A stretch of 34,220 nucleotides of DNA, from contig JAFCCJ010000006.1 of the NCBI GenBank assembly GCA_017610305.1, forward strand, positions 1 to 34,220. Reading direction: 5' to 3'. The stretch's first letter is position 1, and each line of letters opens with the position of its first letter. Below, one piece after another: positions 2,944-6,321 of the stretch. The notes under the pieces are model-generated. The model was not told the DNA's origin and made no database searches. It worked only from the letters and a program-made list of their open reading frames with translations. The stretch comes from Candidatus Iainarchaeum sp. GTDB lineage: Archaea; Iainarchaeota; Iainarchaeia; Iainarchaeales; JAFCCJ01. A program made the position numbers and the translations under genes.

Positions 2944-3592
2944 CCAACGAAATTATTTTCTCCGCATTTAATTCTTCGAGAGATTCCACAACCAAATCCG
3001 CCTTTGAGAAATCCACATCTTTTGAAAATTTTCCAGGGACTGCAATCACTCTCATCCCCGCATTCTTTGCCGATTCCACACCTAACAGAGTGTCCTCCAC
3101 AGCAACACACTCTTTTGGGTCAATTCCTAATTTTTCTGCGGTTTTGAGGTAAACGGCGGGGGAAGGCTTATGTTCAGTAACATCATGAATATCCACCATC
3201 ACAGAAAACTTATCTGTGAGATTGAATTTGTCGGTAATTAAATGAATATTCCTTCTCGAGTTGGCTGAAGCAATTGCAAGGATAATTCCTTTTTCCTCAA
3301 GGGAATTGATTAATTCTTCCACTCCGGGATTTAATGGGAGATTTTCCGAAACTTTTTTCCTCGCAAGATTCTGGGTGTTCTGCCAGAACTCATCATAATC
3401 TATATCCAGCCCGTACTTTTTCTTAAGTATTTCATACTTCTTGCTGAAGGTTTTGCCGACCAAGTTTTCATAATCCTCCTGCGTTAATTCAACATTCCTT
3501 TTCTTCATGAATTCGCCAATACTTCCTAACCATGCTGAGGGGGTGTCTGCGATAACCCCGTCGAAATCGAAAATAACTGCCTTAATCGCCAT
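2936..3592 (-). CDS. HAD-superfamily hydrolase, beta-phosphoglucomutase-like
   Basis: FDFDGVIADTPSAW (motif I), IASANSRRN (motif II), KPSPAVYLKTAEKLG and AVEDTLLGVESAKNAGM (motif III). Confidence 0.85.
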   Translation of the reverse strand: MAIKAVIFDFDGVIADTPSAWLGSIGEFMKKRNVELTQEDYENLVGKTFSKKYEILKKKYGLDIDYDEFWQNTQNLARKKVSENLPLNPGVEELINSLEEKGIILAIASANSRRNIHLITDKFNLTDKFSVMVDIHDVTEHKPSPAVYLKTAEKLGIDPKECVAVEDTLLGVESAKNAGMRVIAVPGKFSKDVDFSKADLVVESLEELNAEKIISLGE

Positions 3593-4469
3593 AAATCATC
3601 GCCTTCTTTTCCTCGAACAGTTCCTTCGGATAAAAAATAAGCGGCCGGAAAATTGGAAGCTCTGCACCAATTCTTTTTAGATCCTCACTCAGTTTGATTT
3701 CCCCTGAAACAAGTGCCTGCACATTTATGTCGGGTTTCTCAACCAGCTGGCGCAGTTTTTGCAACGGAGTGAAAAGGAAACTCCGATAAGAATTCCATCT
3801 AACCAATTTTTCAACTTCTTTTTCAATTTCCTTGGATTCTTTCTCAACAACTGGAAAAATATTACAGCCTCTTCGCATCATCAAAAAGGCGGCAATCAAA
3901 TCATCCTTTTTCCCAGTAAACAGCATTGCAACATTCCCTTCAACCCCCAAAGGCAGCCCTTTGGGCCCCTCAATTTCCTCCAAATAAATAAACACGTCCC
4001 TTCCCCTAATTTCAACATTAACTTCCTTATCCGGTTTTGTCAGGTTAACTTTCAAACCGGGAAATTCTTTCATAATTTCAGAGCCCAGTTTTTCCGCCAG
4101 TTCCTGATTGGTTAACTCCTTATTGTCTACAACTCTTGGCCTTACCGCAAAGCTATCGCCCTCTTCCAGAAATCCCTTGCAGGCTTCGATTCCCTTTTCA
4201 AGGATTTTTTTCGTGTTGGTACCATGGACGGATTCTGCCTTTGCAAAGGAATGTATTCCAAAAACAAGGGGCAAAAGGGAATGAATTTCATCCAGATTTT
4301 TTATTTTTTCAGGATAGAGGTAAAGCCTTCCCCCTTTCTTAACTATTCTGCTGCCTGCAACACCATTTGCGCGGAAAACCGATTTCATGTTTGAGACCAA
4401 TTTGTCCATGAAATATTTTCTCACAAAATGGCTTTTCAGTGAGATTTCCGAGGCAGTTTTAACCAACAT
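3582..4469 (-). CDS. ThiI-like THUMP-domain protein with degenerate PP-loop; start trimmed to ATG at 4469
   Basis: MLVKTASEISLKSHFVRKYFMDKLVSNMK... resembles the ThiI N-terminus, followed by a THUMP-like region and GLPLGVEGNVAMLFTGKKDDLIAAFLMMRRGC at the PP-loop position. The longer 341-aa ORF start would run through the putative leader ORF on the opposite strand. Confidence 0.65.
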   Translation of the reverse strand: MLVKTASEISLKSHFVRKYFMDKLVSNMKSVFRANGVAGSRIVKKGGRLYLYPEKIKNLDEIHSLLPLVFGIHSFAKAESVHGTNTKKILEKGIEACKGFLEEGDSFAVRPRVVDNKELTNQELAEKLGSEIMKEFPGLKVNLTKPDKEVNVEIRGRDVFIYLEEIEGPKGLPLGVEGNVAMLFTGKKDDLIAAFLMMRRGCNIFPVVEKESKEIEKEVEKLVRWNSYRSFLFTPLQKLRQLVEKPDINVQALVSGEIKLSEDLKRIGAELPIFRPLIFYPKELFEEKKAMIYGD

Positions 4470-4493
4470 GCAATTTGGGGAAAGCATAAACAA

Positions 4494-4501
4494 TTTTAAA
4501 T
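4494..4501 (+). promoter_or_regulatory. Candidate archaeal TATA box (TTTTAAAT) for the leader ORF-cysK-cysE transcript
   Basis: A TSS about 26 nt from the box centre would fall near 4524, about 8 nt before the leader ATG at 4532. A second AT-rich box, TTTAAATA (4512-4519), could serve the divergent ThiI-like gene. Confidence 0.4.
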
Positions 4502-4531
4502 GCATAAGTGGTTTAAATATTACTGAGTTAA

Positions 4532-4594
4532 ATGAGCGGTCAAGACAACAAGAAGAAATGCACCTGTAAGTGCTGTTGCTGCTGTTGTTGTTAG
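4532..4594 (+). CDS. Poly-cysteine leader peptide MSGQDNKKKCTCKCCCCCCC upstream of cysK
   Basis: Codons read directly: ATG AGC GGT CAA GAC AAC AAG AAG AAA TGC ACC TGT AAG TGC TGT TGC TGC TGT TGT TGT TAG. 9 of 20 residues are Cys, and it lies 66 nt upstream of cysteine synthase. Too short for the ORF track. Confidence 0.75.
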   Translation: MSGQDNKKKCTCKCCCCCCC

Positions 4595-4596
4595 AG

Positions 4597-4654
4597 ACCT
4601 CTCTCAAAAACTCATATAATCGATTTTTTGGGGGATTAAAAACACTAGAGAGGT
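4597..4654 (+). promoter_or_regulatory. Putative SD-sequestering stem-loop (translational attenuator) of cysK
   Basis: ACCTCTCT (4597-4604) is the exact reverse complement of AGAGAGGT (4647-4654). The right arm overlaps the SD GAGGTGA (4650-4656), 4 nt before the cysK ATG. Flanking TAG (4592-4594) and CTA (4657-4659) can pair across a 2x2 internal loop. Confidence 0.65.
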
Positions 4655-4660
4655 GACTAG

Positions 4661-5581
4661 ATGCGGTATGGAAACGTTATAGAGACCATAGGGAATACTC
4701 CTATTGTGAAACTGAACAAACTCGCAGGGGAAAACGATGCGGATATTTACGCAAAACTGGAGATGTTCAACCCGGGAGGGAGTGTAAAGGACAGAATCTG
4801 CATAAGTATGATTGAGGATGCCGAAAATAAGGGGCTGATTAAAGAGGAAACGGTTATTGTTGAACCTACCTCAGGAAATACAGGAGTGGGGCTTGCAATG
4901 GTATGTGCCGCAAAGGGCTACAATCTGAAACTGGTTATGCCTGAGCAGTTCAGTATTGAAAGGAGAAAGATAATGAAGGCACTTGGAGCTGAGCTGGCGT
5001 TAAGCCCGAAGGCAGGTGGAATTCCGGGAGCGGTGAAAATGGCTGAGGAACTGGTTGCAGAAAATTCAAATTATTTAATGTTGCAGCAATTCAAAAATCC
5101 AGCAAATCCTGAGATTCACAGGAAAACAACTGCTGAGGAAATACTAAATGATGTTCCTGATTTGGATGCGTTTGTGGGTGGTGTTGGAACCGGAGGGACT
5201 GTGACTGGTGTTGGTGAGGTTCTCAAAGCAAAAAATGAAAATATAAAAATTGTTGCCGTTGAACCAACTGATTCTCCTATTCTCTCAGGAGGGAATCCGG
5301 GGCCTCACAAAATCCAGGGAATTGGTGCGGGATTTGTTCCTAGTGTGATGAACCAAAAAATAGTGGATGAAGTTGTTAAAGTGAGCAATGATGAGTCGAT
5401 AGAGACCGCAAGAAAACTGGCTAAAAAGGAGGGAATTTTTGCGGGGATAAGCAGTGGTGCGGCGGCATTTGCCGCACTTAAAATTGCGAAGGATTTAGGC
5501 CAAGGAAAAACGGTTGTTGTCGTATTGCCTGATACCGGCGAGAGGTATTTGACAACTGAATTATGGGGGGGGGTAAAATGA
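4661..5581 (+). CDS. cysK: Cysteine synthase (O-acetylserine sulfhydrylase), PLP-dependent
   Basis: ETIGNTPIVKLNKL, NPGGSVKDRI (PLP lysine), EPTSGNTGVGLAMV and ISSGAAAFAALKIA are CysK motifs. Strong SD GAGGTGA upstream. Confidence 0.95.
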   Translation: MRYGNVIETIGNTPIVKLNKLAGENDADIYAKLEMFNPGGSVKDRICISMIEDAENKGLIKEETVIVEPTSGNTGVGLAMVCAAKGYNLKLVMPEQFSIERRKIMKALGAELALSPKAGGIPGAVKMAEELVAENSNYLMLQQFKNPANPEIHRKTTAEEILNDVPDLDAFVGGVGTGGTVTGVGEVLKAKNENIKIVAVEPTDSPILSGGNPGPHKIQGIGAGFVPSVMNQKIVDEVVKVSNDESIETARKLAKKEGIFAGISSGAAAFAALKIAKDLGQGKTVVVVLPDTGERYLTTELWGGVK

Positions 5582-6156
5582 GTTTGCTAAAAACAATAAA
5601 GGCAGATATTAAAACTTTCAGGGAGAATGACCCCGCGGTAAAAAGTACCTTTGAGATTTTGCTGTGCTACCATACATTCCACGCAATTCTCATTCACAGG
5701 CTTATTCACCCGCTACACAAGATCAATATTCCAATACTCCCAAGGTTTATTTCAATGGTGAACCGGTTTTTTACCGGGGTGGAGATTCACCCTGGAGCGC
5801 AGATTGGGGATGGGTTTTTCATTGACCATGGGACAGGGACGGTGATAGGGGAGACTGTGGAGATAGGAGAGAACTGTGTTATGTTCCAGCATGTTACTTT
5901 AGGGGGGACAGGAAAGCATATCGGGAAAAGGCACCCTACGGTGGGAAATAATGTTCTCATGGGAGTTGGCTCAACACTTTTAGGGCCGATTAATGTTGGG
6001 GACAATGCAAAAATCGGTGCAAACACATTCATAATTATGAAGGATGTTCCCGCAAATGCGACAGTTGTTGGTGTGCCGGGAAAAGTGATAAAAATCAATG
6101 GACGGAAATCAGTGAAGGAACTCAAAAAAACCGTCGTGCCAAATGGTTTTAAATGA
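5578..6156 (+). CDS. cysE: Serine O-acetyltransferase
   Basis: MSLLKTIKADIKTFRENDPAVKSTFE..., EIHPGAQIGDGFFIDHGTGTVIGET and hexapeptide repeats. The ATGA overlap with the cysK stop supports a start at 5578 rather than 5563. Confidence 0.93.
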   Translation: MSLLKTIKADIKTFRENDPAVKSTFEILLCYHTFHAILIHRLIHPLHKINIPILPRFISMVNRFFTGVEIHPGAQIGDGFFIDHGTGTVIGETVEIGENCVMFQHVTLGGTGKHIGKRHPTVGNNVLMGVGSTLLGPINVGDNAKIGANTFIIMKDVPANATVVGVPGKVIKINGRKSVKELKKTVVPNGFK

Positions 6157-6249: not shown

Positions 6250-6321
6250 GCTGAGGTGGCAGAGAGGCTATGCATCCGCCTGCAGAGCGGAAGATCGGGG
6301 GTTCAAATCCCTCTCTCAGCT
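6250..6321 (+). tRNA. tRNA-Cys (anticodon GCA)
   Basis: Acceptor GCTGAGG/TCTCAGC, anticodon arm TCCGC-CTGCAGA-GCGGA, T arm GGGGG-TTCAAAT-CCCTC, discriminator U (typical of tRNA-Cys). CCA is not encoded. Confidence 0.93.

Follow-up and report, generated by a model that had tools for sequence, protein, structure and literature searches.

Sensing of an amino acid through translation of a leader peptide is textbook bacterial regulation, as in the trpL, hisL, ilv, and leu leaders. For cysteine, leader peptides containing a run of cysteine codons have been predicted in Actinobacteria (PMC1262725) and detected in mycobacteria by ribosome profiling (PMC4633059), and mycobacterial polycysteine, leaderless small ORFs (sORFs) are summarized in later papers as cysteine-responsive attenuators (Canestrari et al., 2020, doi 10.1111/mmi.14498, as cited in PMC9094748 and PMC9031893). 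These sORFs are the nearest known system to the archaeal locus described here. The initial annotation of this locus had pointed to Cys-rich upstream ORFs of actinobacteria, a precedent that is correct according to PMC1262725, PMC4633059, and PMC9094748, and knew of no established archaeal example, in agreement with the literature that we searched (open papers only), where no archaeal amino-acid leader peptide was found.

The leader ORF and its gene cluster

The window, i.e., the whole 34,220-nt stretch of Candidatus Iainarchaeum sp. DNA that was analyzed, encodes an archaeal eRF1 and an S-layer protein by Pfam, consistent with an archaeon. Its cysteine cluster runs in the order divergent thiI-like gene, leader, cysK, cysE, and tRNA-Cys(GCA) (Table 1). 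Translation of positions 4532-4594 (+) gave a 20-codon ORF with nine Cys codons, the final seven contiguous and followed by TAG, and a 66-nt spacer (4595-4660) separates it from the cysK ATG at 4661 on the same strand. All of this had been read correctly in the initial annotation, as had the mixture of TGC and TGT within the run, which the codons at 4571-4591 bear out. A run of six TGY codons occurs at one other site in the whole 1.24-Mb genome, out of frame within another ORF. A leader on the same genome's cysS was looked for and none was found, nor was any Rfam riboswitch or T-box upstream of cysK, tRNA-Cys alone having reached threshold in the window. The start codon of the thiI-like gene is uncertain (4487 or 4472). 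Its product is a short form in which THUMP is present and the match to the ThiI domain covers only ~55 residues; a divergent thiI-like neighbor is also found at L002 and L004, and the short gene adjoins the Cys operon in relatives too.

Table 1. Features of the cysteine gene cluster, with positions in the window.
Feature	Position	Strand	Basis or remark
thiI-like gene (ThiI ferredoxin-like + THUMP + start of ThiI domain)	3582..4487	-	Pfam PF22025, PF02926, PF02568
TATA-like box TTTTAAAT, preferred leader promoter element	4494..4501	+	Centre ~35 nt before leader ATG
Second TATA-like box TTTAAATA	4512..4519		28 nt from thiI-like ATG 4487
Leader ORF MSGQDNKKKCTCKCCCCCCC, then stop	4532..4594	+	Translation; recurrence in relatives
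Seven successive Cys codons TGC TGT TGC TGC TGT TGT TGT, presumed sensor	4571..4591	+	Translation
ACCTCTCT, candidate anti-Shine-Dalgarno	4597..4604	+	Eight Watson-Crick pairs with 4647-4654, over the cysK Shine-Dalgarno
Competing 11-bp hairpin UCUCUCAAAAA/UUUUUGGGGGA	4600..4636	+	Folding
ATATAAT, possible separate cysK promoter bypassing the leader	4614..4620	+	Consensus match only
cysK Shine-Dalgarno GAGGTGA	4650..4656	+	Sequence; strong
cysK, O-acetylserine sulfhydrylase	4661..5581	+	PF00291; in frame from Shine-Dalgarno and ATG, no frameshift
cysE, serine O-acetyltransferase (SATase/hexapeptide)	5578..6156	+	PF06426 + PF00132
tRNA-Cys, anticodon GCA	6250..6321	+	ARAGORN; Rfam RF00005

Recurrence of cysteine-run ORFs in related archaea

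Comparison of the region upstream of cysK in relatives had been set as a test beforehand, and its outcome was strongly positive, Cys-run upstream ORFs recurring with divergent bodies. The survey covered 61 cysK loci, some of them weak homologues (36-38% identity), of which 18 belong to the window's phylum and 43 to a second phylum, that of a Nanoarchaeota archaeon (G093) whose cysK, found in a genome scan, was the point of entry. The order of the window was represented by 81 species genomes and the phylum by 93, all in families other than that of the window genome. An ATG-initiated ORF of 4-40 codons lying ≤400 nt upstream was counted when three identical residues in a row occurred among its last six. 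By this criterion, Cys-run ORFs preceded cysK at 17 of the 61 loci, where dinucleotide shuffles led us to expect 0.1; among the 19 other residues, Q, M, V, and L gave one locus each and the rest none. The Cys matches obtained with control genes (n = 288) were internal ATGs of cysK together with two cysE genes 5' of cysK, and bacterial-type cysK loci had a Cys-run ORF in 0 of 72 cases. Taken together, these results indicate that the pattern is specific to cysK and to these archaea. About half of the surveyed cysK loci have no Cys-run leader, and a looser count, which admitted weaker Cys endings and leaders of cysE-cysK and cysS-cysK operons, reached 26 of 58 CysK rows.

Apart from cysK, the genes found downstream of Cys-run ORFs are cysE, cysS, and tRNA-Cys. 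A scan of 380 second-phylum genomes for ORFs ending in CCCCC and a stop found intergenic examples before cysS-cysK (L338), cysE-cysK (L339), and a tRNA-cysE stretch (L337), the other intergenic ones being without an identifiable downstream target. Since ORFs ending in CCCC and a stop were nearly all out of frame within genes when the 81 genomes of the order were scanned, the pattern is uninformative without its position. In L236 and L267 the tRNA-Cys gene separates the leader from cysK; at four loci (the window, L002, L004, and L005) it is found 3' of cysK. On a CysK tree the window groups with L229-L233 in a clade with support of 95/95, five of whose six members have the leader; over the tree as a whole, presence and absence of the leader switch at least 10 times.

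Leader peptides of relatives include MNKVKAEKKCNCCCCH, MKTNNARPCNCCCCCYC, MTRQQLINSISCCCC, MRSKLTKKAHSCCC, MQYNICCCC, and MKPNQCCCC, with further divergent bodies in MNSATTNECCCCC and MATKVMKKNKKSDSCCC. They are very variable in length, charge, and the spacing of their Cys residues, of which some contain just two to four. Since the bodies differ, the Cys run is the part that is kept. We conclude that the ORF at 4532-4594 is a real, previously unannotated cysteine leader ORF, conserved in kind.

Several neighboring arrangements were also recorded. Upstream of a single cysK, L058/L229 carries two tandem Cys-run leader ORFs (3666-3909 of L058). In L337 (G333:C13, 590-2057), the leader MSNTHCCCCC, closed by a stop, is followed by a LAGLIDADG-type ORF, which overlaps a tRNA-like gene, and then by cysE; a metA-like ORF lies upstream, and the sequence after the leader is almost identical to that of L241. 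An intergenic ORF with a CCCC tail (MASSTKAKSGAKKKASHSHKEGCCCC, then stop) was seen in L208 (G012) ~300 nt before an EF-1alpha-like gene, with no Cys gene behind it, and in Flavobacterium luminosum (L076, 2812-2901) a Cys-rich short ORF, MMMINLLNNKCNCCCKKCCMSAPTVYYHI, lies ~1.1 kb upstream of cysK.

Archaeal TATA boxes lie ~26 nt upstream of the transcription start site (TSS). When 26 loci were aligned on the leader ATG, 92% had an all-A/T hexamer centred at -26, and a TATA-like box was centred between -30 and -23 in 22 of the 26, versus 6% of other nearby ATGs, the loci being related so that a binomial P overstates their independence. In relatives the position of the box peaks at -26/-27, and the archaeal TATA-TSS distance predicts leaderless translation for most of them. 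The window departs from this pattern, with boxes centred at -35 and -16.5 of the leader ATG as against -27 in relatives. Since the second box, TTTAAATA, fits the divergent thiI-like gene, the first, TTTTAAAT, was assigned to the leader, which would place its TSS near 4524 and give a 5' untranslated region of ~8 nt; TTTAAATA, were it used on the plus strand, would place the TSS past the leader ATG. This tentative assignment, at an atypical spacing, is the main weakness for the window locus.

Proposed mechanism, read-out, and alternative explanations

The leader very probably lets the ribosome sense a shortage of cysteine and adjust cysteine synthesis, as judged from sequence comparison. The cysteine sensor proposed in the initial annotation is supported by the occurrence of Cys-run upstream ORFs before cysK, cysE, cysS, and tRNA-Cys, where the transcript is predicted to begin, and we regard a sensing role of the Cys-run leader as well supported. 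More specifically, the sequence at 4532-4594 is likely to be a leader peptide ORF that acts in cis, responds to Cys-tRNA, and raises cysteine synthase when cysteine is scarce. A cysK-cysE-(tRNA-Cys) transcript would begin at this ORF or no more than ~8 nt before it, and ribosomes starting on it would read nine Cys codons, seven of them contiguous before the stop. With plentiful Cys-tRNA, ribosomes would pass these codons and terminate; with scarce Cys-tRNA they would pause there, and the position of the paused ribosome would alter events in the 66 nt before cysK so that more cysteine synthase is made. Translation of the leader, pausing, and the direction of control (low cysteine giving more CysK) are steps that we infer.

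A pause could be read out in several ways. In the window, ACCTCTCT begins 3 nt past the leader stop and is complementary to AGAGAGGT (P = 0.0004 versus shuffles, first 14 nt after the stop), yet this 8-bp helix over the cysK Shine-Dalgarno (SD) formed inconsistently in folding models. A hairpin of window-like layout appeared in L002 and L004 when the stop codon was included in the fold. Over 19 loci, pairing of the SD/AUG with the region after the stop was 0.32 versus 0.24 in shuffles (p = 0.005). In constrained folding of 18 loci, mean SD accessibility was 0.44 without a ribosome and 0.45-0.47 when one occupied the Cys codons, and with a ribosome modeled at the first Cys codon of the window the SD-closing helix was favored (0.76), the sign being opposite to that expected. 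These models gave no consistent support to a simple unmasking of the SD by a ribosome held up on the run. Since the stall models are inconsistent and ambiguous in sign, we claim the sensor and do not claim a particular read-out; control of cysK translation initiation has, in our estimate, slightly less than an even chance, premature termination of transcription or polarity in the leader a somewhat smaller one, and mRNA stability or other routes share what is left.

In many relatives a conserved motif, TTCT..CATTG, comes directly after the leader stop (TTCT in 21 of 29 versus 7.3 expected), a feature of the second phylum that the window lacks. Whole or partial TTCT..CATTG(G) occurs in the first 25 nt after the stop in L003, L229, L230, L236, L238, L241, L242, L244, L255, L262, and L337, among others. 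Pairing of this motif with the cysK start codon was visible by eye at some loci and was rejected as a general explanation; the motif is also present before tRNA genes. Its presence where a tRNA is next favors control at the level of transcription or of RNA stability in the second phylum.

Of the explanations that compete with this reading, the one nearest to it keeps the Cys-tRNA-sensing leader and makes the read-out purely transcriptional, a finished leader allowing termination at a U-rich sequence and a paused ribosome preventing it. The two loci with tRNA-Cys between leader and cysK speak for it, since a switch at the cysK SD would leave that tRNA uncontrolled, as do the TTCT..CATTG motif of L236, found in part in L241, and a T6 tract at 4624-4629 in the window. 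However, no terminator-like site was found on the plus strand, T5 runs within 25 nt past the leader stop were not enriched (4 of 29 versus 6.1 expected), and the window has the 8-nt anti-SD match; we hold this version possible but doubtful. It is improbable that cysK instead uses a promoter of its own, the ATATAAT of Table 1, with the Cys ORF a non-functional relic here and functional in relatives. That element is a good match, its spacing would suit transcription starting near 4643, ahead of the SD at 4650, and the TATA position before the window leader is atypical; however, TATAAT-like 6-mers are common in AT-rich DNA, and seven intact Cys codons and a stop persist in a lineage whose CysK shares no more than ~60-64% identity with the database relatives found.

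The remaining alternatives concern the ORF itself. The initial annotation had also considered a metal-binding microprotein, and a small Cys peptide that binds metals or takes part in redox chemistry in trans would suit a product with Cys at nine of 20 residues, Lys/Cys-rich tails being able to bind metals in general. The comparison speaks against this idea and makes it very improbable: relatives keep the Cys run only, body and Cys spacing are not conserved, and the ORF lies directly before Cys genes at a predicted transcript start. A chance ORF made by slippage of a TGY repeat has in its favor that TGY runs are found elsewhere, for the most part within genes and out of frame, but as a general explanation it is refuted by the 17-versus-0.1 result of the survey and by the confinement of control-gene matches to Cys genes, and its probability for the window ORF is negligible. 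The preferred reading, a leader in cis that senses Cys-tRNA, is the one compared with known systems below.

Possible cysteine-codon frameshifts and comparison with known systems

Eight cysK genes of relatives apparently need a +1 frameshift, three in the window's phylum (L003, L008, and L011) and five in the second (L239, L243, L244, L247, and L262). In these eight, the frame opened by SD and ATG stops after 9-25 codons and the cysK frame (289-322 aa) is the +1 frame, without an SD-preceded start of its own; stub ORFs that end soon past a Cys codon are exemplified by MKQGGYPCNTRT and MNKGDSRCK, each followed by a stop. In 8 of 8 the shift can be placed at the codon before TGC or TGT, which is CGG, CGC, CCG, CCC, or GCG, and several shift sites consist of GGTGRT, three bases, the slip codon, and the Cys codon. 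Eight concordant cases make other start codons or sequencing errors hard to sustain as the explanation, though possible for single cases. In L005, L219, L248, and L261 a small wHTH gene takes the place of the leader 200-260 nt upstream of cysK and would be reached from a short ORF (MAARSERLCQGQ, then stop, and others) through a +1 shift at CTT_TGC in the first three and CCC_TGC in L261. In L254, where the leader upstream of cysK is MTAKGNKLQVGENALTYFSKSLCCCKCC (closed by a stop), shifting +1 at its CTT_TGT would lead stop-free into CysK (319 aa). The window cysK is in frame and requires no shift.

We lean toward the view that DPANN-type archaea may control cysteine genes by ribosomal reading of Cys codons in at least two ways, by leaderless Cys-run leaders and by programmed +1 frameshifts exactly at Cys codons in cysK or in a small wHTH regulator before it. 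In the latter route, the SD-initiated frame would end soon past the Cys codon, and only ribosomes slipping there when Cys-tRNA is scarce would make the protein. The prfB (RF2) gene is controlled by an autoregulatory +1 frameshift with UGA as the slow codon. The cysK and wHTH genes of relatives share with it an SD-like GGTGRT, a 3-nt spacer, a slip codon (CGG, CCG, CTT, and others), a slow codon, and the +1 frame, whereas here a Cys codon stands where prfB has UGA, and the shifts are archaeal, predicted only, and absent from the window cysK. If true, this would amount to a frameshift of the prfB kind with an amino acid as its signal, and in cysK a route by which a biosynthetic gene could sense its own product. 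Of programmed frameshifts known in archaea, a single (-1) case is listed by a 2021 review.

The leader itself shows these traits of the attenuator class: it is a same-strand upstream ORF with a run of end-product codons and with pathway-tied conservation beyond chance. With the classical attenuators (trpL, hisL, ilv, and leu) it shares a leader ORF rich in end-product codons 5' of a biosynthetic operon, but the intrinsic terminator/antiterminator pair of those systems was not found for the archaeal leader. Archaeal transcription terminates differently from bacterial transcription. Translational attenuation of the ermC type offers another likeness in the possible sequestration of the SD just past the leader stop (window, L002, and L004); it differs in that the signal here would be uncharged tRNA-Cys and not a drug, and our models support such a switch inconsistently. 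For archaea, where regulation is usually credited to transcription factors, the leader would provide a concrete cis-element.

The closest likeness is to the mycobacterial polycysteine sORFs, which are also short ORFs with a Cys run, the presumed sensor, near the stop, upstream of genes for cysteine or sulfur metabolism. Those sORFs start leaderless, as most of the archaeal relatives are predicted to do from their TATA boxes; the window boxes lie at -35 and -16.5. The archaeal ORFs differ in archaeal TATA placement, in the genes that follow (cysK, cysE, cysS, and tRNA-Cys), and in the TTCT..CATTG motif downstream, a feature of one archaeal phylum; the mycobacterial sORFs have been tested experimentally, and the archaeal ones are known here from sequence. 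Both are too short for sequence similarity to be claimed. Recurrence in two archaeal phyla with the Cys run alone kept suggests independent evolution more than once, and the archaeal leaders are probably independent in origin from the mycobacterial sORFs.
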